This document shows, in pieces, positions 46,053 to 64,000 of a DNA stretch of 64,000 nt. A program made the translations under genes and the position numbers. The stretch comes from Nitrosomonas sp. Its GTDB lineage: Bacteria > Pseudomonadota > Gammaproteobacteria > Burkholderiales > Nitrosomonadaceae. How positions within the stretch are numbered: position 1 is the first letter of the stretch; the number at the start of each line of letters is the position of its first letter. The DNA lies in NCBI RefSeq assembly GCF_019752095.1, contig NZ_JAIEMO010000003.1:186001-250000 (forward strand). Direction: 5' to 3'. The notes below the pieces were generated by a model. The model did no database searches, had not been told where the DNA came from, and was given only the letters and a program-made list of their open reading frames with translations.

Positions 46053-46078
46053 GGATTTATTCTGAGGAGTTATTTTTG

Positions 46079-47611
46079 TTGGCAGATATTAAAGTCGTTG
46101 ATCTATTTGCTGGGCCAGGCGGTCTTGGTGAAGGATTCTTTAGTTTTTCCAATAAACAAGGTAGACATCCTTTTCGTACCGTTATTTCCGTGGAAAAAGA
46201 AACATCAGCACACAAAACCTTAACGCTTCGAAGTTTTGTTCGCCGCCTTTTGAAGAATGGCGATTCCTTGACTGAATATTTTGCCTATTTACGTGGTGAA
46301 AGAAGCATCCCATATTCAAACCAAACAAAGGCTGCTTGGGTCGATGCAACTGCTGAGACCCTTCAGGTCACACTTGGAACCGTATCAGGTGACAAGTTAG
46401 TCATGGAAAGAGTCAAGAAGTCACTTAGAAATTCAAAAAACTGGATACTCATAGGCGGTCCACCCTGCCAAGCATATTCTGTCATCGGCAGATCAAGAAA
46501 CAAAGGTATTCGTGATTATACTCCTGAGGCTGATCATAGGCATTTTCTTTATCGGGCATACCTTACCCTTCTAGCTGAACTCCAACCCCCAGTTTTTCTT
46601 CTAGAAAATGTCAAAGGGATTCTGACTTCCAGAGTTTATGGTGACCTTATATTCCCTAACATTCTGCGCGACCTGTCGGATCCTGCTGGAAAAACCGGAA
46701 AGTCAGGGCCAAAATACCGAATTCACTCCATTTCGAGTGACGAATACTTTGAACATGGACACGAACATGATTTATATTACACTTCAAAGTATGTCGTAAA
46801 GGCCGAAAATCACGGTTTGCCGCAAAACCGTCACAGGGTCATTCTTATCGGCGTGAGGGAGGATATAGACAAGAAGCCAAGGACTTTGGATTATGCTGTT
46901 GCTCCAACCGTAGCTGAAATCATCAAAGATATGCCATTCTTACGAAGCGGGATCACAACAAATGATGGCTCCCTTGAATGGATGGTTACTGTCAATCAGT
47001 ATGCGGAAGATCTGAGAAATTCCCTCAAAGAAGTGGATTCTAATCTTTCGGATAAATTCGCCGAGATTAGCTCCTTTTTCAACAACACTAGTGCCAATAT
47101 TCTATCTCGAGGCGGAAGATTCATCAGTCACCCTAGAACTGCGGCTGGAAGCATTGATTCTTGGATTGGGAGCAATGCACCAACTGATGGGTTTGCAAAT
47201 CATGAGTCGCGTTGCCATATGCACAGAGATTTACTTCGATATCTTTTTGCTTCTTCATACGCTCTGGTAAAGGGAAGGTCCCCAATAGCGATTGATTTTC
47301 CTGAAAATCTTGCACCATTACACAAAAGTTGGTCATCAGGCGAGTTCGATGATCGATTCAGAGTGCAGCTCTGGAATCATCCATCAACAACAATCACCAG
47401 CCACATGTCGAAAGATGGTCATTACTTCATTCACCCAGACCCAAGGCAATGCAGAAGCCTGACCGTCAGAGAAGCTGCTAGACTACAAACTTTCCCTGAC
47501 AATTATTTCTTCGAAGGCAACCGCACGCCGCAGTACGTTCAGGTCGGCAACGCCGTTCCTCCTTTGCTTGGGCATATGATTGCCAGAAGAATCTACGAAT
47601 TAATTTCGTAG
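46079..47611 (+). CDS. DNA (cytosine-5) methyltransferase
   Basis: The start is TTG at 46079 (or 46076), set by the GAGGAG ribosome site at 46064-46069; it gives about 510 residues beginning LADIKVVDLFAGPGGLGEGF (motif I). Further C5 motifs are GGPPCQAYSVIG with the catalytic cysteine (motif IV), LLENVKGI (motif VI), QNRHRVILIGVR (motif VIII) and QVGNAVPPLLGHMIA (motif X). The region between VIII and X (about 230 residues) is the target recognition part; its specificity is unknown. It methylates self DNA in a system with Vsr and the convergent sigma/GHKL/Z1 operon, 117 bases from that operon's end. Confidence 0.94.
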   Translation: MADIKVVDLFAGPGGLGEGFFSFSNKQGRHPFRTVISVEKETSAHKTLTLRSFVRRLLKNGDSLTEYFAYLRGERSIPYSNQTKAAWVDATAETLQVTLGTVSGDKLVMERVKKSLRNSKNWILIGGPPCQAYSVIGRSRNKGIRDYTPEADHRHFLYRAYLTLLAELQPPVFLLENVKGILTSRVYGDLIFPNILRDLSDPAGKTGKSGPKYRIHSISSDEYFEHGHEHDLYYTSKYVVKAENHGLPQNRHRVILIGVREDIDKKPRTLDYAVAPTVAEIIKDMPFLRSGITTNDGSLEWMVTVNQYAEDLRNSLKEVDSNLSDKFAEISSFFNNTSANILSRGGRFISHPRTAAGSIDSWIGSNAPTDGFANHESRCHMHRDLLRYLFASSYALVKGRSPIAIDFPENLAPLHKSWSSGEFDDRFRVQLWNHPSTTITSHMSKDGHYFIHPDPRQCRSLTVREAARLQTFPDNYFFEGNRTPQYVQVGNAVPPLLGHMIARRIYELIS

Positions 47612-47728
47612 AACCATAAACACCTTTTCGAATACAACGAATACGAACAGATCGAGGCCACGAGTTCTAAGCAAAGTTTCATTGGTATTTTGAAGACCTG
47701 AAGTGGTACCGTAAAACTGGATAGCTTG

Positions 47729-49519
47729 TTACATAACCTCTGGAATTTCTGAATCAATTGCAGAAAACGAGTGCTTCTGAACTTGTTCCCAACATTCCGA
47801 TTTTTTTGCCCACTCGGAAATCATCCTTCCACGAGAACTTTGTTGAAGCACAGTGTATACCTCATTTGCCCATTTAAGAATCTGTTGCTCTAGTGACTTA
47901 GAGATTTTTTGCTCCTGCCAAATAAGACTCAAATTAATCTTGTCAGCCAAATGTTTTGAAACCACTGCCACCGTGTAAGCCGTGATGTTTGCTTGGAATG
48001 CAGGAAAATTATTTCGAATAAGCTTCTGAGCGGATTTAAATATAATAATTTTAGTAATCATATTCTTATACTCAGTTACAGCTGGTAACTTAGGTTCCGC
48101 GGAATCCGAAGGATCAACGATCTCCATAAAAGCAGCGAAGTTCTTTTGACCTCCCAAACTGACGCTATCCGGTCTTTGCTCCCAAGCACACAGATACTTT
48201 GCCAAATCGGTCTTCGTGAGTTTACGTGCTGGGGGTATAGACTCCTGTAGTCGCTTTATTCCAGCAGGAGTTTTTCCCTCTCTTTCAAGCATCACCTTAT
48301 AACTTCCTGTTGCTCGCTCATAAAACCATCGACCAAAGCCATCTGGACAGTAAGTATTTATTGCGAGTTTCTCCATTTCCACATGAAACGGTCTGTTCGC
48401 GGAAAGATCAGATTGATTAACTTTGTTCTGAGTATTTGAGAAACGTGAGATATCACTGATCAATGCTTCTTCTTGAGCTGGATCCGCCTGCTTTAAAACT
48501 ATTATCTTTGCTGGCACCCTAACTTGGCTTAAATCAGTTGTAGAGAAACGCTTCTTTGTGAAAAACATTGATGCGGTTGTTTGACCACCGTTTACTATTT
48601 GCATCCCCTTCAGCCAACTAATTCCGGGCCCTCCATCAGCGGTGCGCTCTAATCGTGCTTCATCAGCAACAATGACAATCCCGTTGTTATATGCCATGAA
48701 TCTATCTGGTTGATAGCGGAGAGTTTGACTTATTCCTTTATTGACCTTACCTGTTTGACTTAGAAACGAACGTACATTCGCCTCTAAAATTCGAGTTCCA
48801 TACTTATCATAGAGAAAACGCAATGCTTCCCCTGGCACAACTGTCATTGCATAATCGTACTCACCTAATGAGTTTGGCACCCATACGCAAGGCAAAGGAC
48901 CACCGGATATATCTTCAAAATTCACAACCAGCTCATCGCGAGGTTTGCCCTCTTGCCAATGGTTATAAAGGCGAACAATATCCATAACCTCAAGTTTGAT
49001 CGTCTTACCTTGAATCACTCTGGACTGAAATTGGCGAGTCTTTACTTGGGCATCAGTAAGGATGTAAATCCGAATCTGCTCAAGGGTCGGATAGCTTTGC
49101 TCGATAGTCAAAACTAACGGGTAAGCCTCAGTGGACTGATCCATTTTGCTGGACAACTTACCTTCTACGCAATAAGTTAAAAATCGAGAACAATGGTCAG
49201 CAGCTTTCATAGTCTCGCTATCAGGAATGCTTGTAAGTTGATCTTTTCCTTGATACAAACTGACGAATAAATCAAGCTGGTCTGCATCCTCCGAGAGACA
49301 GTAACCACTCAGCCTTACATTTGCTATTCCCACCTTTGCCTCGTAATTACAAACTTGTGGTTCATCAAATGTCATGCCAATTTCTGACATATAGTGCGTC
49401 ACAGTCTCAGTGAACACATTTATTTCAAACGGAACTTCTGTTCCAGGTTGAGTGAAACGAGAATTCATTTCTTCTCTAATCTCGCTGCGCGTTTGATCTA
49501 AGAATTCAGCTAATTCCAT
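47729..49519 (-). CDS. AIPR (abortive infection phage resistance) domain protein
   Basis: This 596-residue protein matches the AIPR family in its central region: MAYNNGIVIVADEARLERTADGG and WLKGMQIVNGGQTTASMFFTKKR (about residues 272-330), followed by KIIVLKQADP and ISRFSNTQNKVNQSDLSANRPFH. These NGGQTT and SNTQNKV signatures are diagnostic. Family knowledge: AIPR proteins appear in abortive infection and restriction-type loci; the biochemical activity is not known to me. It is the last gene of the minus-strand defence operon, 2 bases after the PD-(D/E)XK gene. Confidence 0.92.
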   Translation of the reverse strand: MELAEFLDQTRSEIREEMNSRFTQPGTEVPFEINVFTETVTHYMSEIGMTFDEPQVCNYEAKVGIANVRLSGYCLSEDADQLDLFVSLYQGKDQLTSIPDSETMKAADHCSRFLTYCVEGKLSSKMDQSTEAYPLVLTIEQSYPTLEQIRIYILTDAQVKTRQFQSRVIQGKTIKLEVMDIVRLYNHWQEGKPRDELVVNFEDISGGPLPCVWVPNSLGEYDYAMTVVPGEALRFLYDKYGTRILEANVRSFLSQTGKVNKGISQTLRYQPDRFMAYNNGIVIVADEARLERTADGGPGISWLKGMQIVNGGQTTASMFFTKKRFSTTDLSQVRVPAKIIVLKQADPAQEEALISDISRFSNTQNKVNQSDLSANRPFHVEMEKLAINTYCPDGFGRWFYERATGSYKVMLEREGKTPAGIKRLQESIPPARKLTKTDLAKYLCAWEQRPDSVSLGGQKNFAAFMEIVDPSDSAEPKLPAVTEYKNMITKIIIFKSAQKLIRNNFPAFQANITAYTVAVVSKHLADKINLSLIWQEQKISKSLEQQILKWANEVYTVLQQSSRGRMISEWAKKSECWEQVQKHSFSAIDSEIPEVM

Positions 49520-49521
49520 GT

Positions 49522-50523
49522 TTAATTATTCCCATAAATATCATTTAACATTTCAGTAATTGTGGTGGATGTTTGAATAGCACCAATATCAATTTCGTAC
49601 ATGGCTGATCGAACGCCCGCAGGTACTGTACTGGGAGTCAGTCTGGGAAATACCTCATCAACTTTTATAAAGCTCAAATTCTGAAGGCGAAAACGTCTCG
49701 AATATTGATTACTGTGAACATTCAAATAACCAATTAATGCTAGATTGGTATCAAATCTGAAGAACAAATCATCAGGCATTCTATCCCTTAGGCTTTGAAT
49801 AATCTCAGGTAACGTTCGTCCTTCGTCTACTAATACAAACCTTGAAATTACCAAAAATATTAGACTCAGAACAGAATCATCCAGTTGCTCGAGCGAACTA
49901 ATCTTAGCTACGAATCTATCGGATGCCAATGTACTTTTAACCTCTAAAGCACACGACATAAGTTCGAAATCTTGTGGGGCATCTTCTGGCCCAACCCAAC
50001 CTTGAATCACATCATAGGCGGACACTCCAGAAGCCAATAATTGCTCGATGCAGTTCAATTCTCCCACTAAACCTAATTCTGCCTCTGGACTTAGAATCTC
50101 ATTACCCTTCTGCATAAAAGCTTGCCAAGCTCGGATACGAGAGAGAAATAATTCAAGCAACTTAATATCACTTTTTGTCTGATTAATTTCCAAAGTGCCC
50201 AATACATCTTCAACCACTTTTGAAAACAAATCTAAAGATCCGGCAGACTGCCTAACCAAGGAAAGTAAAGGTTGCTGGATTCCTTCAACGTTAACGATCT
50301 CAACTTTAAAACCGTTTCCCTTAGGCAAAGAGCTCGGGGATAGCTTAAGTGATGAAGAAAATCCCACAAGAACTGCCTCTAGATTGTCGGGGAAAAACCT
50401 TCCGGCCCGGACCGTAACTTGGCCATACTGAGTAATCTGAATTAATCTACAACCTGTGGAGCCTGAACTGGCTGTCAACGCATTCCATGCCCTTAGAAAA
50501 CTCGTATTATTCTGCTGAGCCAT
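49522..50523 (-). CDS. PD-(D/E)XK motif protein (DUF4420-like nuclease)
   Basis: With the ATG at 50523 (MAQQNNTSFLRAWNAL) the product has 333 residues; the frame opens seven codons earlier inside the Z1 gene. The nuclease core is read as PEAELGLVGELNCIEQLL (early acidic residue in helix 1), then QDFEL and CALEVKSTLASD, where the D/E-X-K catalytic set would be EVK near residues 194-196. Proteins of this DUF4420-like group occur beside Z1 and GHKL ATPases in restriction-linked loci. It is the likely DNA-cleaving part of the system. It overlaps the Z1 stop by 17 bases and precedes the AIPR gene by 2. Confidence 0.87.
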   Translation of the reverse strand: MAQQNNTSFLRAWNALTASSGSTGCRLIQITQYGQVTVRAGRFFPDNLEAVLVGFSSSLKLSPSSLPKGNGFKVEIVNVEGIQQPLLSLVRQSAGSLDLFSKVVEDVLGTLEINQTKSDIKLLELFLSRIRAWQAFMQKGNEILSPEAELGLVGELNCIEQLLASGVSAYDVIQGWVGPEDAPQDFELMSCALEVKSTLASDRFVAKISSLEQLDDSVLSLIFLVISRFVLVDEGRTLPEIIQSLRDRMPDDLFFRFDTNLALIGYLNVHSNQYSRRFRLQNLSFIKVDEVFPRLTPSTVPAGVRSAMYEIDIGAIQTSTTITEMLNDIYGNN

Positions 50524-53374
50524 ACTGCGACTCCCACAACACATTGTTAACTTCGTACTTTACTTTGACGCCTGCTTTGCTACCCGGGAAACTGATTCCA
50601 AACGCAACGATGTTCACCGAGTCTGGGGGGAAGTTCAACCCCGTCCTTTTCGCATCTAATAAATAAATCATGAGAAGCCCCCGGTCAGCATGCCCTTGAA
50701 TCCCGTATCTTTGAGCTCCATATCCACGAATATATCGAAGTGATGGTCCGCTTGGTAACTCAGGTTCTGTCCTGTTTTTAAGTCTTCCGGGATCGCGATG
50801 CCAAGCCTCCTTAGTAAAATCTAATGCCGCTAACCAACCTGCTTCATCAATATCAATTCCTTCATCTTTTGGAGAAAGAAGTCGCCCAATACTATATTTA
50901 CAATTTGTACTCCCTTTTGATTTTCGTTTGGTAAGGGGTATAGAAAATTGATGTATTGGAAATGCTACGTCCTCATCTCCACTTCCTCCAATTACCGCGA
51001 TGGTCCAATTAGTAAGTTCTCCAACAGCCGCCATTTTCGAAATGAACTCAGCCAGTAATTTGCTGTTGACTTTCATGACATCTGGATGGGTTTCATATGT
51101 ATTAAGGAAGTCCTCAACTACTAAATGTGAGATGTTTTCCCAAATAACCCCATTCCACTTTTCTTGGGATGTACCGCGCTTCTTTGAAGGGATAGCCGTG
51201 GGCTGACCAAGGCTAGTAATCATTACACTCAATGCTTCGAGATTTTTCTTCAGTTTCGTAGAGTCACGGAAAAATGAAATTGTCTCTAAAACCTCACCAC
51301 TGAAAGATAGGTAAAGAGGCTTCGAACTGCGCATCTTCAGTCTAGAAGTGACCATAAGCACAGGATGCGATTTCACTTTCAAGCCGTAGTCTAGTGGAGT
51401 ACCCTTTCTTGCAACCATTGCATCAAATTCCTCGCGCAACTCTTCTGATGCATCCGTAATATGTTCGAACCACTCAATTAGCTCACCTGTAGTATAGAGA
51501 CGACACAAATCCAAGTAACCAAGTCTATAGCCAAACCAACGTCCCATTTGCATCAATGTATCGTACATGCGTGATGCACGAAGAAAATAGCTGGTGCAAA
51601 GGCCCTCAAGGGTTAATCCTCGAGCTAACTTGTCACCTCCAACTGCAATAATCTTTAGCGGCACTACACTTTCGGCATAGTCAAGCGCATCCTTGGCGAA
51701 TCCATTTATCATTCGTACTTGGACTTCGTCTATAACCCCGTTTATTGCCGACCACACTTCATCCCATGAAAAATCTATAACTTGACCATCAATTAAATTT
51801 TTCTCATGAATTGCAACTGTGCTGGGAACGAAATCACTTTGCCAGATAGTCTTCAAATCATCGTGAATAAGTTGATGCCCAATTCTTCTCGCAAGCTTTT
51901 GCTTCATATCCAATAAGTGATTAGTAATGGTTTGATGCACTGTTTTTTGCACAGCATTGAACCTAGTCACATGAACTAGCATTGAACTGTGGTGAGATCC
52001 TTGACCACGCAATTTTCTAACTGCGCACGCGATAAAAAACGAGGAAATAGCATCCTCCAAACTTTTTGGCAAGCCACTTTGATTTATATGCGGAACTGAG
52101 TGATTATTTTTATGCTTTACTGGCATCCATCCAGATTGTCCATCCTCAGAACAATGATCAGCTATTGTTCTGGTCAGATCTAAAGCCTCCGTTCTTCCGT
52201 CAATACTCGATAAACCGAATACTCTAGCGGGTCCAACATAATTCGAAGGAGCGCTCAAATTTAGAATAAAAGAAGATGGAAATAGATCAGGGCCTTCTTC
52301 GTTTGTTGAACCTTTTTCATGGATAAAGATATTTGCGAAGGGAGTGGCCGTATACCCAACATAGGCTTTCTTTGAAAAGCTATTGAGAATCCTACGAATC
52401 AAACTATTGATAGCAGTTGGTTGATGTTCAGGATCAGCTTGATTGTTTTCATCTACAACTGTTTCTCCTGTGTCTACTGAAGCGTTGTCAGCCTCATCAT
52501 CAATTATGAGAAGTGGCAAATTGGTAACCAATCTTTTTCCTGTTTCGGGATCGGTGATATTGGCCACATGGTTTTGAATCCATCGGAGTAGCCTTTGCAA
52601 TACAGACTTATTTTTTTTTACAACAAAGAGCCATGGTTTTTGCTCGGGAGTGATTCCTAAATTTCGAGCATTTCTAGCACTGAAGTCACCATCTTCCGCA
52701 CGATAAGTCCCAAAGTTTGGTTTGATAGAGATGTCACTATTTTTCTCCCCTACACCGATTACCTTTAAATATTCTTGGTCTGCGCTGGTCTCAAAACCCA
52801 AGAAGCCCTCATCCAGTCGTATCTGGGTCTGAGCTCGAAGATTATTATGCAAACCAGAAAGAACAATGATGATTTTATAACCGGCATCAGCAGCCTTACA
52901 AATCAGACCTGTGTAGTTTCCTGTTTTTCCAGACTGAACATGACCGACCACCAATCCTCTTCTGTCCCACCCACCAGAGCGAACAGGATCTTCAAGAAGA
53001 CCTAATATTTCATCAGTAGTGTCATCAAGACCCTGTACGGCTATCCAAGGAAGTTTCTCCTCTTGCCATTCCCTATAGCGCTGCCAGTATCGCCAATCTC
53101 TTTTTCTTTCAGTTGTTAACCAGGTTTCATGATCTTCATTGTTTACTAGTATCCCGCTCTGGCCCATCCATACACTGTATCGACGAATGAGCTCTGAGAT
53201 GACCCAATCACAATCCACTTCGAATTGCCAAGAGGGTTTTAGACTCAACGCATCTTCAATTTTTTCTTCAATAAGAGTTGGAGTAATGCTTGCCTTATCC
53301 TCTTCCTCTTCTAACAAAAGTTGAACCATCTGGAGTAAACGAAGATTAATTTTTTCTCTTTGATGTTCCCTCAT
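50507..53374 (-). CDS. Z1 domain superfamily II ATPase/helicase-like protein
   Basis: The 955-residue protein has Walker A GHVQSGKTGNYTGLI (residues 144-158), LSGLHNNLRAQTQIRL, Walker B LLIIDDEADNASVD (about 289-302), VGYTATPFANIFI motif III and the Z1 domain around 500-650, with KIIAVGGDKLARGLTLEGLCTSYFLRASRMYDTLMQMGRWFGYR. Z1 proteins are predicted to translocate on or remodel nucleic acid and occur with MORC-type ATPases in restriction-linked islands. It overlaps the GHKL gene by 4 bases upstream, and the PD-(D/E)XK gene downstream, so all three are translated together. The motifs look active. Confidence 0.93.
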   Translation of the reverse strand: MREHQREKINLRLLQMVQLLLEEEEDKASITPTLIEEKIEDALSLKPSWQFEVDCDWVISELIRRYSVWMGQSGILVNNEDHETWLTTERKRDWRYWQRYREWQEEKLPWIAVQGLDDTTDEILGLLEDPVRSGGWDRRGLVVGHVQSGKTGNYTGLICKAADAGYKIIIVLSGLHNNLRAQTQIRLDEGFLGFETSADQEYLKVIGVGEKNSDISIKPNFGTYRAEDGDFSARNARNLGITPEQKPWLFVVKKNKSVLQRLLRWIQNHVANITDPETGKRLVTNLPLLIIDDEADNASVDTGETVVDENNQADPEHQPTAINSLIRRILNSFSKKAYVGYTATPFANIFIHEKGSTNEEGPDLFPSSFILNLSAPSNYVGPARVFGLSSIDGRTEALDLTRTIADHCSEDGQSGWMPVKHKNNHSVPHINQSGLPKSLEDAISSFFIACAVRKLRGQGSHHSSMLVHVTRFNAVQKTVHQTITNHLLDMKQKLARRIGHQLIHDDLKTIWQSDFVPSTVAIHEKNLIDGQVIDFSWDEVWSAINGVIDEVQVRMINGFAKDALDYAESVVPLKIIAVGGDKLARGLTLEGLCTSYFLRASRMYDTLMQMGRWFGYRLGYLDLCRLYTTGELIEWFEHITDASEELREEFDAMVARKGTPLDYGLKVKSHPVLMVTSRLKMRSSKPLYLSFSGEVLETISFFRDSTKLKKNLEALSVMITSLGQPTAIPSKKRGTSQEKWNGVIWENISHLVVEDFLNTYETHPDVMKVNSKLLAEFISKMAAVGELTNWTIAVIGGSGDEDVAFPIHQFSIPLTKRKSKGSTNCKYSIGRLLSPKDEGIDIDEAGWLAALDFTKEAWHRDPGRLKNRTEPELPSGPSLRYIRGYGAQRYGIQGHADRGLLMIYLLDAKRTGLNFPPDSVNIVAFGISFPGSKAGVKVKYEVNNVLWESQYGSAE

Positions 53375-54900
53375 AGCTCAGCCTCTTGGGATGGATCTAT
53401 TAATGATTCAATAAGCTTTGGATATTTGTGGAATGGTTCTGATTCCAACAACCTTTTCTTAGCTAACTCAGACGAAAGACCTTTTTTGATGACCAAATTT
53501 CGATACATAATCTTAAGTATTCGTACCACATCCTCTGGCGGTGAATCATCAAAGCCAGTAGATGGTGTTTCTTTGTTTTCAGCAGTGTCAATCCAAATTC
53601 GTTGAACTGGTATTGTTTCCTCTAGAACACGTAACATCGCCTTTACTTGGGGTAACAATGGACCAGCCTCGTCGATAACTGCCCTAATTGAAGGGTGATC
53701 GAGATCTACTCGGTAACGCATGCCGCCTGTGAAATGATCTGCTCTCCACGCTTGTATAACTTCTGTTCCTTCATTGGTTCGTGGCGCCCTTCCTCTATGA
53801 GCAAATGCTCTTCGAGCTCGCGCACGAGTTGCTTCTGCCATCTGAGTAAGCCAAGGCCTCAATGCAATAGGAGGACGAGCAGTAGACTTTCGAATATCAA
53901 TCTTCCAATCCTGATCAACGGAATTAGGGATATCCAATCTAATTCTGGCTAGCCTATGAGCCTCATCTTTAGTCCAAGATCTGCCTACCCCTAGACTTAG
54001 CCAACTCCCGGCCAAAAGAAGTCTCTCATTTCTATAGACATAAAAGCCTTGCTGTGCAGTCCACCCATCTGGTCCTTGGGCCTCTATATATTCCTTCTCC
54101 AATATACGATCTTTGTGCGGCAAAACATGGCATTCACAAATCACTTTTGGAAAACTAGGCGCAGATGCTGGTGGCGAATGCCAAGGCTTTGCCGGATGAC
54201 CCAATAAAAATGGATCCCAAGGAGAAATTTTAATGTCGTTAATAGTTATCGTTAATTTGGGTTTTAAACCCTCAAGATATCGGTGAAAAACCATTGAAAG
54301 ATGGTTTTCAACTCGATCAATCAAACTTAAAAAATCCTTCTGGGAAAAGCTTGTAGATACGATCCGATCTAGATTTTCCCAAAGTACGATCGTTCCACTT
54401 TTCTGATCATTTAAATCAGCAAGAAATGGAAGAGAATCCTCCTGTGCGCCTTCCAGTAGATACCATCCATCGCCTTCACTTTCTTGCAAGATATCCAAAT
54501 CCCATCTGAGATAACTCTCATTTTTAAAACCTGCTTTTTTTGTAGCTACGGTTAGTCTTCTTGCCTGTGAAAAAGAAGCAGTTTTAAGTCCCATTCCAAA
54601 TCGACCTAGATCATCAGATGATCTTTCATCAAGTGGATTGAACTCGCCAAGACGCATTGCTTTATCAAGGGTTTCATCGGACATTCCGGTGCCATCATCG
54701 AGAATTGATATTCGGCTACTAGAGCCATTCCAATAAAACTTTAACCGCACAACCTTTGCTTTTGCAGCAATACTATTATCAATAATGTCCGCCAATGCAG
54801 AAGCTGTGCTATAACCCAAACCGCGGAGAGCCTCAAACATTGCAGCAGCTTTGGGTGGAGCATGACGCTTTTTTGATGATTGACTTGTATTGAAACCCAT
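53371..54900 (-). CDS. MORC/MutL-like GHKL ATPase of the defence operon
   Basis: The 509-residue protein has the GHKL ATP-binding fold near its start: N box ALADIIDNSIAA (about 36-46), G1 box LDDGTGM (67-73) and G2 box LGRFGMGLKTASF (98-110), followed by a transducer-like domain with KDFLSLIDRVENHLSMVFH and GFYVYRNERLL. This arrangement fits bacterial MORC-type relatives of MutL. Such ATPases are thought to clamp or compact DNA on ATP binding. The start codon overlaps the sigma factor stop by 1 base and the end overlaps the Z1 start by 4. It probably senses or grips invading DNA with Z1 and the nuclease; this is inference. Confidence 0.9.
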   Translation of the reverse strand: MGFNTSQSSKKRHAPPKAAAMFEALRGLGYSTASALADIIDNSIAAKAKVVRLKFYWNGSSSRISILDDGTGMSDETLDKAMRLGEFNPLDERSSDDLGRFGMGLKTASFSQARRLTVATKKAGFKNESYLRWDLDILQESEGDGWYLLEGAQEDSLPFLADLNDQKSGTIVLWENLDRIVSTSFSQKDFLSLIDRVENHLSMVFHRYLEGLKPKLTITINDIKISPWDPFLLGHPAKPWHSPPASAPSFPKVICECHVLPHKDRILEKEYIEAQGPDGWTAQQGFYVYRNERLLLAGSWLSLGVGRSWTKDEAHRLARIRLDIPNSVDQDWKIDIRKSTARPPIALRPWLTQMAEATRARARRAFAHRGRAPRTNEGTEVIQAWRADHFTGGMRYRVDLDHPSIRAVIDEAGPLLPQVKAMLRVLEETIPVQRIWIDTAENKETPSTGFDDSPPEDVVRILKIMYRNLVIKKGLSSELAKKRLLESEPFHKYPKLIESLIDPSQEAEL

Positions 54901-57002
54901 CAGCCATTCTCCTCAACATCTGATTCTGATTTGGACTCATCAACGCCTAGACATTTTAGATCCGCTTGAATATCACTACGATGCTCGTAATTCAGAAATG
55001 CCGCAAAGCACTTTGCTCGCACAGGATTCCTTAGTTTTTTTAGAACCTTAGATTCAATTTGCCTAACCCTCTCACGCGTAACACCGAAAATCTGCCCTAC
55101 TTGTTCAAGCGTCATCTCTTCCTTACCTTCCAAGCCAAAGCGCAATCGAAGTACCGAGGCTTCCCTTTCATCCAGCTTATCCAAAAAACTCGAGACGAAA
55201 TCGGAAAGCTGAACATCAGCACATTTTTCTTCCGGAGATTTATCGGTTGCGAGAATACTAGATCCAAAATCCAAATCATCTAGATCACAATCATTGCCCA
55301 TGTCACCAAAAAGAACAGCGTCATCCGAGAACTTAAGTAGCTTTTTAAGCTTATCAATATCCTTTCCCGAATTAGAAGCTAGAGAGTTCAATGGCATATT
55401 GAATCCAAATTCTTGTTGGTGCTTATCGTTGAGTCGCCTTAGAACGTTTAATTCCTCGACGACATGTACAGGCAAACGAATAATTCGGCTGGTATCTGCA
55501 ATGGCTCTTGTGACTCTTTGTTTAATCCACCAAGTGGCATAAGTTGAAAACTTGAAACCTTTACGATAATCAAACTTATCTACCGCTTTAAATAAACCAA
55601 TGTTTCCTTCTTGAATAAGATCGCTTAGATCTAACCCTCTACCTTGATATTTCCTTGCGATATGGACGACTAGTCTCAAGTTTGCATATACAAACTCATT
55701 TTTGCTGTGTTCAAATATTTCCAGCTGTGTTTGAATAGCGGAGGACACTTCTGTAGTCAACAGATGACTACTCTCTTTGAAGCGCTTGAGAAAATCTACA
55801 CTCGGTCTTGGGATATGCTGGTCTTCTTCGAGCAAACTCAGATTCTCTCGAGCAACTAGAAGATATTCCTCAAAACTTTGCTGGTTTTCATCCTCACCGA
55901 GCTTATTCGTATCAAACTCATAATCTGACTCTTCGGCAGGTTCTATATCCGCCACCTCGGATTCCCCAGCTTCATTGAGATCAACTGCCGTTAATACCTT
56001 TTTTACTGGCAAAACTGATTCTAACAAAGACTTCTCTTGCCACACTAGAGAACGAACAATTGAGATGATCGCGCTGTCGATTCTCTGTCCTATTCTCTCC
56101 TCAAGAGTCTTGTCTACTAAATCTCTTGATCTTACATCCTTAAGCATCAGATCAATTAAACGAGACTTATCCTGCAGGTCGTCTAATAGGTTCTGCAATA
56201 AGTTTGCTGCATCTTCGGATTCAACAGAACTTTTCTCTGGTATCTTCGCAGGTAACCACTCACCCAACTTATCTACATAAATACCATCCAGCTCGAGTAA
56301 TCTTGTTAGAACATGTCTGACAGATAAGTAATCTTCAGGGAACTCGTTGAGTAAAACATCCGCAAGCGAATCTTCGTCTACACACCCGAACGAAAGGGCT
56401 TGGCATATTAAGTGAAAAGTACCTGGGTATTCATACACATTGAACGATTTAAAAACAATCACTTCAGGAAGATAAAAGTCAACTTCATCCCAATTTTGAT
56501 CTCTGTCTACTGGCTTAAAGATTGTTAGTCTTTCATGACTAGCCTTCACGGCCTTTCGACATTCCATATCGTCCTCAGGAGTCAACACTTCAGGCTCGGG
56601 CAACCATAGAAACTGCTCAAATTCTATTACTGCAGGCAGATCTTCAGCATTTGAAAATGCTTGCGCATCTAGTTGAGGCTCAGATTGAGCTTCTGGTTTT
56701 AGTTGCTGCTCTGATTTCTCAGAGAACACTGACAAGATTTCTGAATTACCAACACTATGGACTAAATCAAAAACACTTTGATTCGCATTGTTGCAAACCG
56801 AGAGGCTCGCTCCCATTCCAATTAGCATCTCAACTAAAGATAAATGGCCATGTCTAATGGCTAACATCAACGGGGTATTACCTTCAGCATCAGTTGCTTC
56901 GATAACCCCTTCCTTCCTAACTTGAGGCGCTACTGCTGCAACTATTCCACTTCGAATAGCTAACTTTAGCAAGGGGCTGATTTTTTTGGAGGTCTCAGAC
57001 AT
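54900..57002 (-). CDS. RpoD-like sigma-70 factor with N-terminal ankyrin repeats
   Basis: The 700-residue protein starts with two ankyrin-type repeats (about 35-95: [32 protein letters not shown]). A long acidic linker follows, with a WLPEPEV segment and a possible winged-helix part (residues 195-250, [21 protein letters not shown]). A full sigma core is C-terminal: region 2 (435-505, [26 protein letters not shown] and [17 protein letters not shown]), region 3 (510-600) and region 4 (605-665, [23 protein letters not shown]). The DNA-recognition residues are primary-sigma-like. It is the first gene of the operon and touches the GHKL gene. I know no characterised defence system with such a protein; it could direct RNA polymerase to its own promoter or target a phage-modified polymerase. 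Confidence 0.92.
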
Positions 57003-57854: not shown

Positions 57855-58029
57855 CTTGCTTGCCGCTCACAAAGACTACTTTTAGTACCATTCTTCCATG
57901 CGCTTTTGCTTCCTCAATTTGTTGGTGCTGTTCAGGAGTCCACTCATCATTAAATTTAATCATAACCAAAGGTGTTTGATCAGGCATTATCATTTGCTCT
58001 AGTTTCATCAACCTATTTTTTATGTTCAT
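57841..58029 (-). CDS. small hypothetical protein of the integrative element
   Basis: The start chosen is the ATG at 58027-58029 (MNIKNRLMKLEQMI), giving 62 residues; an earlier in-frame ATG would lie deep inside the gene upstream. The protein has a helical start and a strand-rich part (LVMIKFNDEWTPEQHQQIEEAKAHGRMVLKVVFV). No family was recognised. It overlaps its neighbours by 17 bases upstream and 14 downstream. Confidence 0.65.
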   Translation of the reverse strand: MNIKNRLMKLEQMIMPDQTPLVMIKFNDEWTPEQHQQIEEAKAHGRMVLKVVFVSGKQDDNA

Positions 58030-58441
58030 TGGCTTGCTCCAATGCAGATAAACGTTTTTCAAGCTCATCAATCTCTTTGATCCTTGCCAATGTCCCTAGG
58101 CTGGTCAGTAGCGCGCTTCCCTGACTCGGAGCAAGCGTTCCGTTAGCAACAGCCTGAATAATTGATTGACCTTGTGTTGATAAATCGACATCTACTGGCA
58201 AGCTGATCTTTACAGATTGTTCCATTGATTTTATTGGAGGAATAACCCGCTCCAGTAGCAATTTGGCTGCTTGTGAATCGCCTTCCTTAGCTTTAATGAC
58301 CAACTGTTCGATAATTTCCGGTAGATGTTGGGCGATGTTCTCCCTTAACTGCGCCACCTTTCCAGTACCAGGGGTACGGCCGCGCGGATTACCGCTTTCC
58401 CCTTTCTTCCAGCGTCCACGTTCTTTTTTTGCTGTTGTCAT
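58013..58441 (-). CDS. DUF5681-like phage/element protein
   Basis: The 142-residue protein starts with a basic, glycine-rich segment RGRWKKGESGNPRGRTPGTGK, which is the hallmark of DUF5681-type proteins found in prophages and mobile elements. A helical part follows (LRENIAQHLPEIIEQLVIKAKEGDSQAAKLLLERVIPP) and a coiled tail. Similar proteins sit near phage packaging or replication genes; the function is not established. It is the first of three overlapping small genes and follows the iteron-like region on the same strand as the primase-like gene. Confidence 0.75.
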   Translation of the reverse strand: MTTAKKERGRWKKGESGNPRGRTPGTGKVAQLRENIAQHLPEIIEQLVIKAKEGDSQAAKLLLERVIPPIKSMEQSVKISLPVDVDLSTQGQSIIQAVANGTLAPSQGSALLTSLGTLARIKEIDELEKRLSALEQANEHKK

Positions 58442-58470: not shown

Positions 58471-58707
58471 AGTTCTCAATTCTCTTCATAGTTCTCGTCC
58501 GTGAGAGAACTGGATTTCGCTTACTGGGCAATGACTTAAACTTTCGGTTCTCCAATTCTCCAGTCCTCTATTACACCTCCATAAAAAAGTATTTTTATAC
58601 TTAGTAGAGAGACAGAGAGAGAATAGTGAACTATTGCTTAAAACCCTTACCCAGCAAAGATTTCCCAGTTCTCTACTGTGAGAGAACTGGAAGAGAACTA
58701 GAGAACT
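58471..58707. repeat. cluster of GAGAACT heptamers and a 10-bp-arm palindrome (iteron-like)
   Basis: GAGAACT occurs seven times on either strand within 237 bases: 58471, 58490 and 58667 (minus), and 58505, 58682, 58693 and 58701 (plus). Two are combined in a perfect palindrome CCAGTTCTCT-N6-AGAGAACTGG at 58665-58690, and two others in GTTCTC-N8-GAGAAC at 58491-58510. A purine-rich run (58610-58632) lies between the two groups. The 256-base gap has no plausible gene. Next to a primase/helicase gene this resembles an element replication origin, but a regulator binding site is also possible. Confidence 0.75.
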
Positions 58708-60883
58708 GAAAAACATTTAGTCCCCCCATCATCACAATGACTGATTTGGCGAGTTTCCACTAAATAAATAATGATTTCGTCAACTTCTTTAGATTTTGCT
58801 TTCAATAACTTCGTTAATTTTCCCCGTGGCATTAAACCTCGTCGGCAATACTCTCCAAATTGTCTATCATGTGAGTAATTTATGGTGTTCTTAATAAAAT
58901 CCAATGCCTTCGCAGCCTGCTTCTGGAACGGGTTTTCTGCTAAGTCCTTATCAAGCTTTTGTGCGAAAGCTTTGATTGATCCATTAACATAACCCCATGC
59001 CCAGGTAACATGCTCTCGTTTAATGACCCCTCCGTCACCAATCGCAAGTAATCCAGCTACTCGGATCGTTTGTTCCTCTGCACGGCTCCATAAATTAGCA
59101 AATTGATCTTTTTCATTTAACTGTTCGGCGAATTGAATGAGCAAGTCGTGTGCACCCTCTTCATAATCAATGACTGAAATGTCAATAGCGCGGATTTCTG
59201 CCATTTGTTGTTTGAGCTCGTCATTTATCCGAGTATCTGGCTTTCGATTTATCGGGTTTTCTTTATCGGCCTGAACTAATATAATCCGGTTTAGCAAGCC
59301 GTTATCAATCATCCTGGGTGTAATGCCATCCAGCAGCTCAAGCGATGTCGTAGTACCGATCAGATTGATATAAGGATTGTCATCTGGCCGATGTTTTGTT
59401 TCGTGTCAGCGTAGCTTTTGCCTGCAAAAAAAGAGCGGCCTAGTCCGTATAAAGTCATTAAGTCTTTTATCAGATCTTTTTGATGGATTGATCCACGCTC
59501 TGATAGCGCGGTTTGCAAATAAATGCCAAATTCATCAATGAGAATTAACGTAGACGGATTTCCTTCAAGTGAACGTAACAGTGCTGCACCACTGGCTATG
59601 CTCTCGTGAATACTTTCTCCCCGAGACATATTTCTCACCGAATCAATTAAACGTTTAATTGCTTTTCTAGGATCTTCCTTGCCGCGTCCTGTATCGCCAA
59701 CTAAACATATGAACAGGTTCAAAGCTGTATCGCTTCCTCCTACATAAGCTTTATTACTATTCAAATACGATACAATAATCAGGGCGCCAGCAATGGCGAA
59801 AGCTTTAATGGGCATGCGACTGCTTTGGAAAATATATTCCGCTATATCTCCAACGAGTCCGGGCGGGTATTGTAGGCTAGAGATTGCCTCCTCTTCCGTT
59901 ACTGGCTTTACATTGAATTCTGGTAGCGAGGGCAGATCATTGACCACCGGCGCGGACTTCCAGGCGCTGTGCAGTGTTGCCGTAACCTCCGAAGGCTCAA
60001 GACCAATTCTACTGGCGGCATCTTCCAGTTTACTTGTAACTTGATCCACATCCAATCTGCCCGCCTTAACGAATCCATACGCACGATATGCCACTTTGTT
60101 AAGTGTATCGTTACGATTCCCCTCAACGGCTGACTGAAGCTTAAGTAGAAGATTATCAAACTCAATTACCACATAAAAATCATCCTGCACGCATGGTATC
60201 GTTACAACTGGCACGGGCTTGTTCGGGATTCCTACCAGATTACCCACACCAATCCACTCTTTCAGCGCTTTAGCGGTATACCGTTTACCTGAGTTAAACA
60301 CCTCTCGCACCATGAATGGTTGCCCCTTATGATGCAGGAATCCAGGAACGCGCATAACGCGGGGCAGGTCGCATATCTTTGGGTCAGAACCGAGCAGGTT
60401 AGCCAAAGCCTTCTGGCATCCTTTAAACTCATTCAGGTGAAGTGTGTCTTCTATTATCCAGTAAGCGTGGTGTTTCCCGGGAGACGACTCAATTACTATT
60501 GACGGGACTAAAGGAAGATTGTCAAAAGTGCGATTAAAGTCTTGCGTATCAAAATCTGCAAATAATGCGCGCACCCGGACTACATTGCTCGCAGCTCTTC
60601 CCTGCCCGTCTGTTTCATTCACAGCAAAAAATACACCAGCGCCCTGATGATTAAGTTCTTCTAGCTCCGGTCGGCACTCCTCTAAGGTGCCGTGCATGAC
60701 CCTAGCCAGACTGTTGCTTTTATCCTTATCCCGGAAGGTTTGAAAAGTATGACTTTTACCCAAAGCATCAAGAATAGTGGCTTGACTAATTACTTGATTA
60801 TGAGTATATTTTTCTTTACCGGAAGTTTCAAAAATACTCGCCTCGTGCCTACCAGCATCCGGAGCGTTTTCATTTGTGATCAT
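58698..60883 (-). pseudogene. RepB-like primase/helicase (DUF3987-like) gene, split by a frameshift
   Basis: A 507-residue first part (60883 to 59360) holds a primase-like domain (VRVRALFADFDTQDF, SSPGKHHAYWII, PRVMRVPGFLHHKG) and an ATPase part with LVGDTGRGKEDPRKAI (Walker A) and LILIDEFGIYL (Walker B). It then stops early after DTKQNIGQM. In another frame the sequence continues as RPDDNPYINLIGTTTSLELL to LLNRIILVQ and a C-terminal domain ending at 58698. Restoring one A in the AAACAAAA run near 59395 rejoins them (about 728 residues). It is either a decayed gene, a sequencing error or a site of programmed slippage. Intact homologues start replication of phage-like elements. Confidence 0.85.
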
Positions 60884-61140
60884 TATTTACCGCCAGATAG
60901 CAATTTTCTGATTTCGCTAACATTCCACGCCAAGCGGCCATTTATACGCACCGGTCGCAGCGCTCCATTTTCCAGGCAAGCCCAGGCACGTAAGGTTTGG
61001 GGTCTGCGATTCAAATAAAACGCTGCGGCATCTGTTGGAACTGTAGGACGCGTTACTGATTCGAGCGGCGGGAATATTAGTTGATTATGCGAAGCGAGTG
61101 CTTCTGATGGGGTAAAGTTATGATTTGTGTCTATTTGCAT
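60883..61140 (-). CDS. helix-turn-helix (excisionase/AlpA-like) protein
   Basis: From the ATG at 61138-61140, which has a GAGGTG ribosome site, the product has 85 residues. The C-terminal half is a MerR/AlpA-type winged helix: VPTDAAAFYLNRRPQTLRAWACLENGALRPVRINGRLAWNVSEIRKLL. Such proteins act as excisionases or regulators in integrative elements. It ends at the start codon of the primase-like gene (1-base overlap), so it is co-translated with that gene. A role in DNA binding is clear from the fold; the target is not. Confidence 0.8.
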   Translation of the reverse strand: MQIDTNHNFTPSEALASHNQLIFPPLESVTRPTVPTDAAAFYLNRRPQTLRAWACLENGALRPVRINGRLAWNVSEIRKLLSGGK

Positions 61141-61217
61141 TTTGCACCTCGTTTTTTTGTTGAGGTGCGAATGATTTATCAAATAAAGCTATTTACTACT
61201 ATGCGCGGCAGCTATCT

Positions 61218-62129
61218 TCAATAAACGGTATTTAACGGCATTTGGCGGCGCTTTAGACGTTTTCCTAATGCAGATCTACTAAGCTTTGCTTGTATGTCAT
61301 TCTCGTTTGTATAGCACAAAGCATCACCCTCAAATATGCCGGTAAAGGGGGGGCATTCATCTTTGGCCAGTTCCTTCAGTTGCAAGAAAACATCTGCCAA
61401 CTCTGTGGTTCCAGCCTTTTTTATTGCTTCTTCTATCGCTGGGTCTAAAATATTCCGGCGAAGTTTGTTAACTCTTGCTACAGATATATGTGGCGTAACT
61501 AGTATAGATTCTGCTTGTTTAAGTTCTTGTTCGTTGTTTGAATTTGAATAACCAAGAAGTTCTTTCAGTTCAATTTCTCGTTCTTCAAGCTCTTTTATTT
61601 TGGTATCGATTATTATTTGCTCACTAGCAATTCCATTTGGATTAAGTCTTTGCCAATTAAAAATTTGATCAGGAATAGATTGTCGCTCTAGCTCCCAGTC
61701 ACAGTATTGATTTACTGTTTTTTCATAGTCTGGCTGCAGACTGGCATCAAAATCACGTGCCATTTGCTTACGTTGTTCTGTCGATATTTCATCCCATTTC
61801 TGGAAAATATCAACATAAGCAATATTCATTTTCATTTGTTGCGGCAAATCCGAGAACTTTTTCCCGAGATATGGCGCTATGGATTCTATTAATTTCTCTG
61901 ACGCGGCTTTTTCCCTATGATTCGGAGAATAATGAAAATCATATAGCGCAGCTAAATACTCTCGCTGCAGCTTAGAAAGCTTATCCCATTTGCTTACATT
62001 AGCGGAAATATCAATATTGGGTTTTTCTATCCCTTTTTGAGTAAGCCTGTTTTGCAAATCAATAGGTAAGGCAGAGAATTGAGATTCTAAAAAGGGGAAA
62101 ATTTGATCAAGTAGTAGTATATACGTCAT
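61218..62129 (-). CDS. hypothetical Gln/Glu-rich protein of the integrative element
   Basis: I recognise no family in this 303-residue protein. It is soluble, helical and charged (FHYSPNHREKAASEKLIESI, DTKIKELEEREIELKELL coiled-coil stretch around 185-205), with no signal peptide or membrane segment. It is read on the minus strand, after brnA by 11 bases, and before the helix-turn-helix gene by 77. Base composition is like the rest of the element. A plasmid- or phage-borne accessory role is likely, without more detail. Confidence 0.7.
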   Translation of the reverse strand: MTYILLLDQIFPFLESQFSALPIDLQNRLTQKGIEKPNIDISANVSKWDKLSKLQREYLAALYDFHYSPNHREKAASEKLIESIAPYLGKKFSDLPQQMKMNIAYVDIFQKWDEISTEQRKQMARDFDASLQPDYEKTVNQYCDWELERQSIPDQIFNWQRLNPNGIASEQIIIDTKIKELEEREIELKELLGYSNSNNEQELKQAESILVTPHISVARVNKLRRNILDPAIEEAIKKAGTTELADVFLQLKELAKDECPPFTGIFEGDALCYTNENDIQAKLSRSALGKRLKRRQMPLNTVY

Positions 62130-62140
62130 AACATTCCTTG

Positions 62141-62404
62141 TCAGTGTTGCTTCATCCAGTCCCTTAATGCGTCATTGATGCGAGTTTGCCAGCCGTTGCC
62201 TGTGGCTCTGAATTGTTCCAGGATTTCTGTATCTATCCGGAGTGTTACTTGTTCTTTCTTTCCGCTTCCTTGCGGCCTTCCCGGTGCTCTCCGTAATTGC
62301 TGCAATTCGTTATCTGTTAAAGGCAGATTGTCAGGATCAGCAAGGGCGGCTGCGTTAATTTGCGCTTCCTCAATATCAGTGGGTCTAATTAATTTCTTGC
62401 TCAT
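62141..62404 (-). CDS. brnA: BrnA antitoxin
   Basis: The start is taken at MSKKLIRPTDIEEAQINAAALADPDN (62404), three codons into the frame. The 87-residue product has the BrnA pattern: ADPDNLPLTDNELQQL, then the basic GRPQGSGKKEQVTLRIDTEILEQFRATGNGWQTRINDALRDWM ribbon-helix-helix, which dimerises and binds DNA. It neutralises BrnT and represses the operon. It overlaps brnT by 20 bases, the usual toxin-first order of this system. Confidence 0.93.
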   Translation of the reverse strand: MSKKLIRPTDIEEAQINAAALADPDNLPLTDNELQQLRRAPGRPQGSGKKEQVTLRIDTEILEQFRATGNGWQTRINDALRDWMKQH

Positions 62405-62657
62405 AATAGTCAAATTCTCTTTGGTTAGCTTTGCGCAAACTGATTATTCTTCGGTCATTCTCGCGATCAACATAAACCACGCAATATAATCTTTCGCCAA
62501 TCGGTGCTAATGCGACCATACGGTTTTCTCCGTAATCATGCCGCGTGTCCTGCCATATCAGGGCGACATCCCAATCTATGGACGCCGCTTCGGTCAGTGA
62601 TACGCCATGCTTTTCTTGGTTTTTAATATCTTTCGCGGCATCGCAAGTCACTTTCAT
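62385..62657 (-). CDS. brnT: BrnT toxin (RelE-fold ribonuclease)
   Basis: The 90-residue protein matches BrnT: VTCDAAKDIKNQEKHGVSLTEAASIDWDVALIWQDTRHDYGENRMVALAPIGERLYCVVYVDRENDRRIISLRKANQREFDYYEQ. The W-x-x-x-K-x-x-x-N-x-x-K-H-G type N-terminus and the C-terminal RIISLRKANQRE motif with the catalytic-type basic residues are clear. BrnT degrades RNA and is neutralised by BrnA, encoded next. There is no ribosome site before the ATG, and the -10 box ends 5 bases from it, so the mRNA may be leaderless. Confidence 0.93.
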   Translation of the reverse strand: MKVTCDAAKDIKNQEKHGVSLTEAASIDWDVALIWQDTRHDYGENRMVALAPIGERLYCVVYVDRENDRRIISLRKANQREFDYYEQEIN

Positions 62658-62662
62658 GTATA

Positions 62663-62714
62663 AATGTAGTTACGTTTATTATTGAAGTCAAGAATTATTT
62701 GTAGTTACGTTTAT
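62663..62714 (-). promoter_or_regulatory. brnTA promoter with 15-bp direct repeat
   Basis: On the minus strand -35 TTGACT (62686-62691), 17-base spacer and -10 TACATT (62663-62668) are well formed. TGTAGTTACGTTTAT occurs twice (62665-62679 and 62700-62714), 35 bases apart; the first overlaps the -10 box and the second the integrase stop. BrnA is a known autorepressor, so these repeats are the likely operator; an integrase arm site is an alternative. Confidence 0.65.
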
Positions 62715-64000
62715 AGCCTTGCTACATTCAACCCTGCTTGCTTTGGCACAATTTCAATTCCGGCCTCTTGTAAAATCCATTGCTCAATTCTGATATGCCA
62801 TAAGTGCAGCAAATCCAGTTCGCGTTGTATGTAATGCTTCTCAGCGATTGCACTTGGTTTGTGTCCCATAATTTGTGCAACGATTCCCGCAGGTACTTCT
62901 ACCCACTCAGACAGGGTGCCAAAAGAACGGCGCAAACCATGCAATGATAATGGAGGAAGTGCTGCGACAGTCAATGCCCTATTATGAGGATTGCGCGGTT
63001 CTTCCAGTCTGCCAGATGCAGCGGAGGGACTGCTAAAAACAAACTCATTGCGTCGCGGTAATACAGCTATTATATGTTCTACATAAGGCGTTAGTGGAAT
63101 CACTCGCAGCCCTTCAACCTTATCCCTAATGGTCATGCTCTTCCACTTAAAATCTACATCTTGCCATTGCAAACTCGCCAACTCATTACGACGCGCTCCA
63201 GTCAATAATAAAGATTGTAGGTATGCTGATATAACAGGATTGTTAATTTTCTTTACGGCTTCAAACCAAGGCCGGATTTGGGCACGTCTCAGGCTATCGT
63301 TCTTTTTTGTTCTTGGTGTAGGTACCAATCTCTTTATACTTTCGGTCTCACACGTATCAGAATTCACAATAGCGCTATATTCATCATTCTTTGCACACCA
63401 CGTAATAAAGGCACGCAAAAAACGAAATGCTTTTGCAGCGGAGGTAGGAGCTTGGGCCACCTCCTTTTTTAGCCATGCTGAAACGGCGTAAACATCAAGG
63501 TCAATAAGACGCATCGACATAAAAGGCACCAGCATGCCGGGACGTGTCGTTTCCGATTCATTTGGGCGGCGTCCACGTTTGCGCTTTACTCCACCTGCTT
63601 GTAGAAAATAGGCATGATGTGCCCTATGCCTATCTCCCCATTCGGGCTTTCCGTCTTTAATAGATGCGCTGCGTTCTTTAATATATGCGTTCCATGCTTC
63701 TGCAACAGTCACGGATTCACGAACATTCTGTATCAACAGCGCGGCAGCTTCTTTTTCTCTGGCTAGTTTTTCGGCTTCCTTGGCAGCTTCTTCATTAGCT
63801 TTTACTTCGCGCGGGTCTTTACCTTGATCTATCAAGATTTGTAAGCGGCGAGCTTCAATTTGCGCAGCGTCAATGCTCCATACGTTCACTTCACCGATAG
63901 TTAACCGCATGGTTTTTCCTTTAACTTTCGACTCGAAAATATAGCGCTTGCGATTTGAACCGGCTGTTGCACGAACGGCCAAACCATGCACTTCCGTGCA
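62711..64000 (-). CDS. tyrosine-type site-specific integrase (partial, N-terminus beyond the window)
   Basis: The frame stays open at the right edge (…TEVHGLAVRATAGSNRKRYIF), so the first part of the protein is missing. The DUF4102-type arm-binding domain is visible (TMRLTIGEVNVWSIDAAQIEARRLQILIDQGKDP), then a core-binding domain. The catalytic domain has LLLTGARRNELASLQWQDV with the catalytic Arg, LHGLRRSFGTL with H-x-x-R, and GHKPSAIAEKHYIQ with the nucleophile Tyr. Such P4-type integrases insert islands into tRNA genes. It ends 53 bases from brnT on the same strand, and the attachment site of this element is probably to the right of the window. Confidence 0.93.
   Translation of the reverse strand, partial: CTEVHGLAVRATAGSNRKRYIFESKVKGKTMRLTIGEVNVWSIDAAQIEARRLQILIDQGKDPREVKANEEAAKEAEKLAREKEAAALLIQNVRESVTVAEAWNAYIKERSASIKDGKPEWGDRHRAHHAYFLQAGGVKRKRGRRPNESETTRPGMLVPFMSMRLIDLDVYAVSAWLKKEVAQAPTSAAKAFRFLRAFITWCAKNDEYSAIVNSDTCETESIKRLVPTPRTKKNDSLRRAQIRPWFEAVKKINNPVISAYLQSLLLTGARRNELASLQWQDVDFKWKSMTIRDKVEGLRVIPLTPYVEHIIAVLPRRNEFVFSSPSAASGRLEEPRNPHNRALTVAALPPLSLHGLRRSFGTLSEWVEVPAGIVAQIMGHKPSAIAEKHYIQRELDLLHLWHIRIEQWILQEAGIEIVPKQAGLNVARL

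Follow-up and report, generated by a model that had tools for sequence, protein, structure and literature searches.

A two-fold symmetric repeat array directly 3′ of a DUF3987-type primase-helicase gene in Nitrosomonas: a candidate replication origin of an integrated element

The element and its genes

The window, which is the whole 64-kb stretch of Nitrosomonas DNA analysed here, holds an integrated element of about 18.9 kb that extends from a tRNA-Arg(CCT) gene to the point where its last 50 bp recur. This identical copy lies beyond the window, at C1:250253-250302 (64253-64302 in extended window coordinates). Read from its right end, the element encodes an integrase, a toxin-antitoxin pair, a 303-aa protein, an HTH_17-like protein and a split primase-helicase, followed by the repeat array and a DUF5681 gene. 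Beyond DUF5681 come a weakly matched transposase remnant, Mza A-E, a cytosine methylase and Vsr.

45392-45441, plus strand: attachment-site copy in tRNA-Arg(CCT)
47729-57002, minus strand: complete Mza anti-phage system, MzaE to MzaA, carried as cargo of the element
58013-58441, minus strand: DUF5681 gene, a possible small terminase with weak phage homologues
58471-58707, no strand: candidate origin, a two-fold symmetric array of six mirrored pairs of GAGAA-type sites
58698-59312, minus strand: 3′ part of the primase-helicase gene, encoding the helicase end and its C-terminal winged helix in a frame other than that of the 5′ part
59360-60883, minus strand: 5′ part of the primase-helicase gene, RepB_primase (PF16793) and the start of the helicase
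60883-61182, minus strand: small HTH_17-like protein overlapping the primase start, in an AlpA-like position (E 0.048, below the curated cut-off)
61218-62129, minus strand: 303-aa protein of unknown function
62141-62657, minus strand: toxin-antitoxin pair (ribonuclease toxin 62385-62657, antitoxin 62141-62413)
62711-64000, minus strand: tyrosine integrase, its start just past the window end

The cargo region (45639-57002) comprises Vsr, the cytosine methylase and the complete Mza A-E set, in which MzaA has ankyrin repeats fused to sigma-70 regions 2 and 4. Several transposase-like genes adjoin the element just outside, and a gene beyond the window and outside the element (L004, 4524-5042) looks by eye like a phage small terminase.

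The primase-helicase gene is interrupted by a frame break between 59312 and 59360, and is intact in the related loci L005 and L006. These intact proteins score 30.6 and 33 bits against the DUF3987 profile (PF13148, cut-off 27), which neither of the two window pieces matches alone. DUF3987 is widespread, and Pfam assigns the family no function. The C-terminal 89 residues of the helicase hold an invariant run, GKLTKLLK, and adopt a winged-helix fold in the structure model (pLDDT 87.6; Z scores against winged-helix domains reach 10.6). The full-length structure model, with a mean pLDDT of 45, was used for the C-terminus only, and a Foldseek search with the C-terminal model returned nothing below E 0.001, the best hit being MepR at 2.1e-3. 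Among the array-bearing loci described below, the helicase halves share 57-94% identity with the first row of the alignment, and the array is kept even in the three of seven (L033, L034, L036) whose N-terminal, priming half could not be recognisably aligned. An intact relative of the window helicase matches 606 phage and 7 plasmid records at E 1e-5. Two scans of viral contigs found no relative, and a piece of a canonical DUF3987 protein (L063) matched no phage record at E 1e-20.

DUF5681 was found in 12 of the 125 genomes of the family. Its phage homologues are weak (12 records matched, 28-33% identity), and in all five annotated phage neighbourhoods viewed they precede the gene for the terminase large subunit, in one case with an intervening gene and in two across the ends of the record; a sixth record viewed carries no annotation. 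DUF5681 also occurs in small plasmid-like replicons with an integrase, some of them with primase-type or capsid genes. Three plasmid-like circles of 8.6-13 kb (L051, L053, L057) carry an integrase and a DUF5681-type gene, two of them with a major capsid protein, and their incomplete gene tables list no large terminase; they are possibly satellite or phage-plasmid genomes. At a further locus (L066, genome G119, about 1250-1340) four direct repeats of about CAGAAAGTGCAG lie before DUF5681, without a mirrored array. DUF5681 as a general partner of DUF3987 was considered and rejected, its motif being present in just 3 of 81 DUF3987 loci, each with about 1.5 kb of flank.

The mirrored array and its recurrence within the genus

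The sequence-only reading had drawn attention to seven exact GAGAACT heptamers, a palindrome with 10-bp arms and a purine-rich run, placed in a gap between a primase-like gene and the DUF5681 gene. All three features were recovered: the heptamers at 58471(-), 58490(-), 58505(+), 58667(-), 58682(+), 58693(+) and 58701(+), the palindrome at 58665-58674/58681-58690 with arms 100% complementary, and the purine-rich run at about 58603-58627. Their setting needed amendment: the array does adjoin the gene, but the gene is split, and the last heptamers overlap the stop region of its 3′ part because that part ends at 58698. GAGAACT occurs 13 times in the window against 5.56 expected, a count reached by no shuffle, and seven of the 13 copies fall inside the 237 bp from 58471 to 58707. 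Its form, AGTTCTC-N8-GAGAACT, recurs in a second palindrome at 58490-58511, and these two places in the array are the only ones in the 2.8-Mb genome that have it.

The heptamers belong to a larger array of 12 GAGAA-type sites, forming six mirrored pairs about a centre at 58589. The pair centres are 58704/58474, 58696/58481, 58685/58493, 58670/58508, 58629/58549 and 58622/58557, and every pair sums to 117178 within one base. The GAGAA core is exact in 11 of the 12 paired sites, with a single mismatch in the remaining one. A weak GAGGACT at 58565 has no recognisable mirror partner at 58613.

58471-58477, minus strand: exact GAGAACT site; mirror partner 58701-58707
58478-58484, minus strand: degenerate site GAGAATT; mirror partner 58693-58699, 1 bp off
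58490-58511, no strand: palindrome AGTTCTC-N8-GAGAACT, two sites
58546-58568, minus strand: GAGAACC and GAGAATT 8 bp apart, plus the weak GAGGACT
58565-58610, no strand: A+T-rich centre between the site sets, a possible melting site (role inferred)
58603-58632, plus strand: purine-rich run, conserved in part, that contains two degenerate sites centred at 58622 and 58629
58667-58688, no strand: palindrome AGTTCTC-N8-GAGAACT, two sites, with the 10-bp arms given above
58693-58707, plus strand: two tandem exact GAGAACT, 8 bp apart

When the two 118-bp arms are compared without gaps, 59 of 118 positions agree at centre 58589, as against 26-49 at the eight neighbouring centres tried. With words of six or seven letters, a test for mirrored words ranked the array as the top 280-bp tile of the window, and none of 300 shuffles did as well; with five-letter words, one of 300 shuffles was as good and other tiles of the window tied with the array. 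The central 46 bp are 72% A+T compared with 61% over 280 bp, a modest excess.

The window-type helicase is present in 8 of the 125 genomes of the family, the window's own included. Outside the window there were ten helicase match places, nine of which were checked for the heptamer. The suggestion that the cluster might recur beside homologous primase genes was borne out: the array was found at seven of these nine loci, all in the same genus, and in the window and these seven relatives alike it begins at the helicase stop codon. Exact heptamers number nine in G027 (L005), seven in G069 (L006), six in G075 (L032), three in G049 (L033), three and none in the two loci of G052 (L034 and L035), and two in G026 (L036); the remaining array sites of the seven relatives are degenerate. 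No GAGAA array was present at the other two of the nine loci, one place in L037 and L038, nor at the tenth match, a 685-aa frame in L037. The flanks of L014 and L037, in the same genus, held no mirrored array of an informative word, and the same was true of remote relatives outside the genus (L041-L045 and L047). These flanks were all scored without shuffles; L041 offered only 160 bp downstream, and in L042 and L047 the scan scored A+T repeats. Short DNA matches in other genomes were set aside: that in G074 lies close to a porin-like gene and is due to chance, and those in G023, G038 and G080 fall on the start of DUF5681.

Site cores are kept better than spacers. In the four most divergent loci, identity to the window is 0.78/0.58, 0.84/0.49, 0.86/0.47 and 0.77/0.51 for cores and spacers respectively (Fisher p 0.0018 to 1.3e-8), while the three close loci give p 0.03-0.07; in L033 the site mask was slightly outscored by masks shifted by 2, 10 and 11 columns. 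The exact-word mirror test is significant in close relatives and, for five-letter words, in L035, and is not significant in L033, L034 and L036. Aligned with each other, the two arms outscore almost every shuffle at each of the eight loci, where between 0 and 8 of 300 shuffles do equally well. Some relatives are also flanked by repeats at tRNA genes: L032 at tRNA-Arg (about 51 bp), L034 at tRNA-Met (about 49 bp) and L033 by a tRNA-Met repeat whose extent was not resolved.

Mirrored arrays behind other DUF3987 genes

Genomes G023 and G038 have a canonical DUF3987 gene with a mirrored array built from a different word behind it, and DUF5681 beyond the array. This array has four GCTAC and four GTAGC with spacing 6-9-9-30(31)-9-9-6, so that position and symmetry stay constant while the word changes with the helicase. 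The spacing 6-9-9-30-9-9-6 is common to different words, namely GCTAC in L063, GCGAC in L087 and L112, and GCTAA in L111. The DUF3987-DUF5681 loci L064 and L067 have no array, and a mirrored-array scan of L064, L066, L067 and L072 found none.

We then surveyed the 83 best-scoring PF13148 loci (30 from the family, 27 more from a sample of the order and 26 more from a sample of the phylum). More PF13148 matches existed than loci taken, and the loci are not a random sample and include near relatives. Two had too little flank, leaving 81 loci of Pseudomonadota, in which the tested stretch began 40 bp ahead of the longest frame's stop and ended 460 bp past it. A locus was counted as positive with at least three mirrored pairs and no more than 0.7% of shuffles as good at any of three word lengths. 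For L149 and L159 the choice of frame seems incorrect, and the L081 frame is interrupted by a stop.

Mirrored arrays lay downstream of 28 of these 81 best-scoring loci (21/55 in the first set and 7/26 in the second). Control stretches upstream gave none in 71 of the best-scoring loci (0/46 and 0/25), and stretches inside the gene gave none in 55, with none in the second set either. The tested stretch held no mirrored array at the other 53 loci, among them all eleven tested loci of the FTFRDC..HK C-terminal type (L078-L080, L088, L092, L093, L099, L101, L108, L135 and L136). No array was found at three YfjI-type loci of E. coli and Citrobacter tested with shuffles, nor in KE47, which was scored without them.

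At 24 array loci, one winged-helix residue of the helicase and one base of the repeat word go together without exception: Gln accompanies GCTA (17 loci) and Arg accompanies GCGA (7). Array-positive loci with the motif x[QR]xG[PTS] give Gln/GCTA in 16 of 16 and Arg/GCGA in 6 of 6, and two loci added by eye (L095 and L113) agree; four array-positive loci without the motif (L081, L117, L126 and L138) were left out. When all motif loci with a clear word are counted, array-negative ones included, there are 23 Gln/T, 1 Gln/G, 0 Arg/T and 7 Arg/G, four motif loci having no clear word. The array-negative L115 breaks the rule, and in L100, an array-negative Arg/G case, the motif may not lie in the winged helix.

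On a tree of the 24 proteins the Gln/Arg label needs three changes, and the starred branches force all three; these may be gains or losses, and two of the three changing groups carry a long-branch warning. Only one of 416 well-filled alignment columns separates the groups with a single residue each (R in seven, Q in 17), although one neighbouring column likewise separates them with mixed residues. Since the motif used to select 22 of the 24 rows admits only Q or R, and the position was noticed post hoc, these numbers are exploratory. The rule was also seen in canonical DUF3987 proteins, not in the GAGAA subtype of the window. Contacts of Gln with adenine and of Arg with guanine are common in DNA readers, and such contacts would fit the T (with A on the other strand) and the G of the word. 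Residue and word co-vary, and the array is therefore tied to the DNA-binding domain of the helicase.

Interpretation and comparison with known systems

We propose that the array is the replication origin of the element and that it would be bound by the winged helix of the primase-helicase. We give this reading a probability of roughly 0.83, with binding and replication inferred from sequence alone. The earlier suggestion that the repeats are initiator sites is supported by their recurrence beside homologues, by site cores kept better than spacers, by the mirrored arrays behind other DUF3987 genes and by the co-variation of helicase residue and word.

An origin could also be read by another protein of the element, the HTH_17-like or the 303-aa protein, with the helicase recruited later. 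Both genes lie upstream of the helicase, and HTH_17/AlpA proteins bind DNA. The protein at the 303-aa position in L006, however, has by eye a different C-terminal half, while the L006 array is 95% identical to that of L005, and the co-variation points to the winged helix of the helicase; we regard a different reader as unlikely.

We consider it slightly less likely still that the array is an operator through which a transcription regulator controls the DUF5681 gene or the helicase operon. The array is just upstream of DUF5681 too, and palindromes are a typical operator form. Yet the array is constant though the gene beyond it varies: L006 has a truncated DUF5681, and none was found in the L033-L036 genomes, which do have the array. 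Conversely, a different repeat word accompanies DUF5681 where that gene persists (76% and 72% identity) next to another helicase. An initiator site is thus favoured over an operator of the downstream gene because it is the helicase residue with which the word co-varies.

There is little to recommend a role as RNA, with the inverted repeats forming a terminator or regulatory hairpins after the helicase gene. Two palindromes capable of forming hairpins do lie directly 3′ of the stop codon, but in the divergent relative L034 the two halves of one change independently: in one pair AAGAATT faces GAGAACC, so the stem is not kept and the core is kept on one side. Hairpins would leave the tandem sites spaced 8 bp apart and the 237-bp symmetry unexplained, and the array has no Rfam match at the gathering threshold. 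That the repeats are incidental to a short gene is barely credible: a 76-aa frame (58486-58716) runs without a stop for 76-79 codons in the window, L005, L006 and G075, and G049 keeps 71 codons open, but the frame closes after 12-21 codons in three relatives, and substitutions in it are spread rather evenly over codon positions (4/5/6, 3/4/7 and 8/9/13), in contrast to the neighbouring helicase gene (13/6/27 and 8/4/27).

The best reading of the window array thus remains an origin of PICI-like type that a DUF3987 initiator helicase would recognise, its replication inferred. The sequences themselves show the sites, symmetric, conserved and placed behind the helicase gene, and in related loci the co-variation, whereas binding, loading as two assemblies, melting and replication are inferences from them. 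On this proposal the window helicase would be a divergent DUF3987 protein that binds the GAGAA-type repeats through its C-terminal winged helix. The division of the sites into two mirrored sets makes it likely that two helicase assemblies would load, one on either side of the A+T-rich centre. They would melt this centre, opening the array for bidirectional copying that the fused primase domain would prime. As the helicase frame is interrupted in the window, the origin there may be inactive or rely on supply from elsewhere, provided that the break is real and not a sequence error.

More broadly, we lean towards the view that DUF3987 (YfjI-type) proteins across Pseudomonadota include a large class of self-contained, origin-recognising initiators. 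Each such gene would carry its own mirror-image origin just 3′ of its stop, and the choice of Gln or Arg at one winged-helix position would decide between T and G at one position of a five-letter word. Whether the window element is a phage satellite is a nearly even question on which we incline slightly to doubt; the gene order, the origin layout and DUF5681 are no more than suggestive. A packaging gene such as terS occurs in some PICIs only, and DUF5681 may be one to judge by its weak phage homology. No capsid-remodelling gene or packaging site was recognised in the element, in a reading not aimed at either.

The sequence-only reading had likened the repeats to the origins of phage satellites and plasmids, and the likeness holds better for the former: the layout of PICI/SaPI origins fits, that of the long tandem iterons of plasmids does not. 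In Rep_3 iteron plasmids the initiator binds repeated sites beside an A+T-rich region, and the origins have several long direct tandem iterons of about 17-22 bp. The window sites are unlike these in being 5-7 bp long, mirrored and in both orientations, and the sole tandem pair of iteron-like length is of 19 nt at 74% identity.

According to the available parts of two papers, PICI/SaPI origins lie directly 3′ of the initiator helicase gene and have two sets of short iterons flanking an A+T-rich region (PMC6092414, PMC7581432). The window array agrees in each respect, being immediately 3′ of the initiator gene, with two (mirrored) sets of sites and an A+T-rich stretch between them, if only by a modest excess. 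The element also has its own integrase and a specific attachment site (50-bp direct repeats at tRNA-Arg), as expected of a PICI-type element. It differs in that its helicase is of DUF3987 type with differing N-terminal halves among loci, in the two-fold symmetry and conserved spacing of its array, and in its host, a nitrifier genus.

PICMI satellites of Vibrio are described, in the accessible text of PMC10803314, as carrying an integrase, AlpA (PF05930 or HTH_17) and a DUF3987 or DUF5906 primase, deletion of which lowers copy number. The window element likewise is small and integrated, with the order integrase-HTH-DUF3987. By the same partial text, PICMIs adjoin fis and the type element is 6.1 kb; the window element is at tRNA-Arg, not beside fis. 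That text names no origin sequence, and the word 'iteron' is absent from it. DUF3987 was predicted, not shown, to be a replicative helicase of mobile elements, as far as the accessible portion of PMC5862659 goes. In the E. coli K-12 cryptic prophage CP4-57 (L164) the order is intA-yfjH-alpA-yfjI-yfjJ-abpB-abpA, which resembles the window element in its integrase, unknown protein, HTH regulator, DUF3987 protein and anti-phage cargo, and differs in that yfjH is on the opposite strand and no mirrored array follows yfjI.

In the literature searched, from which subscription papers were mostly missing, no report tied the PICI-type origin layout to DUF3987. The layout itself is already known from PICIs; what is new is the DUF3987 survey and the Gln/Arg rule. 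Together these would extend the PICI layout, with stricter symmetry, to DUF3987 helicases in tRNA-integrated elements of nitrifiers and in other Pseudomonadota, giving an origin candidate for elements that replicate by DUF3987 and a residue-to-base rule that can be checked at the bench.
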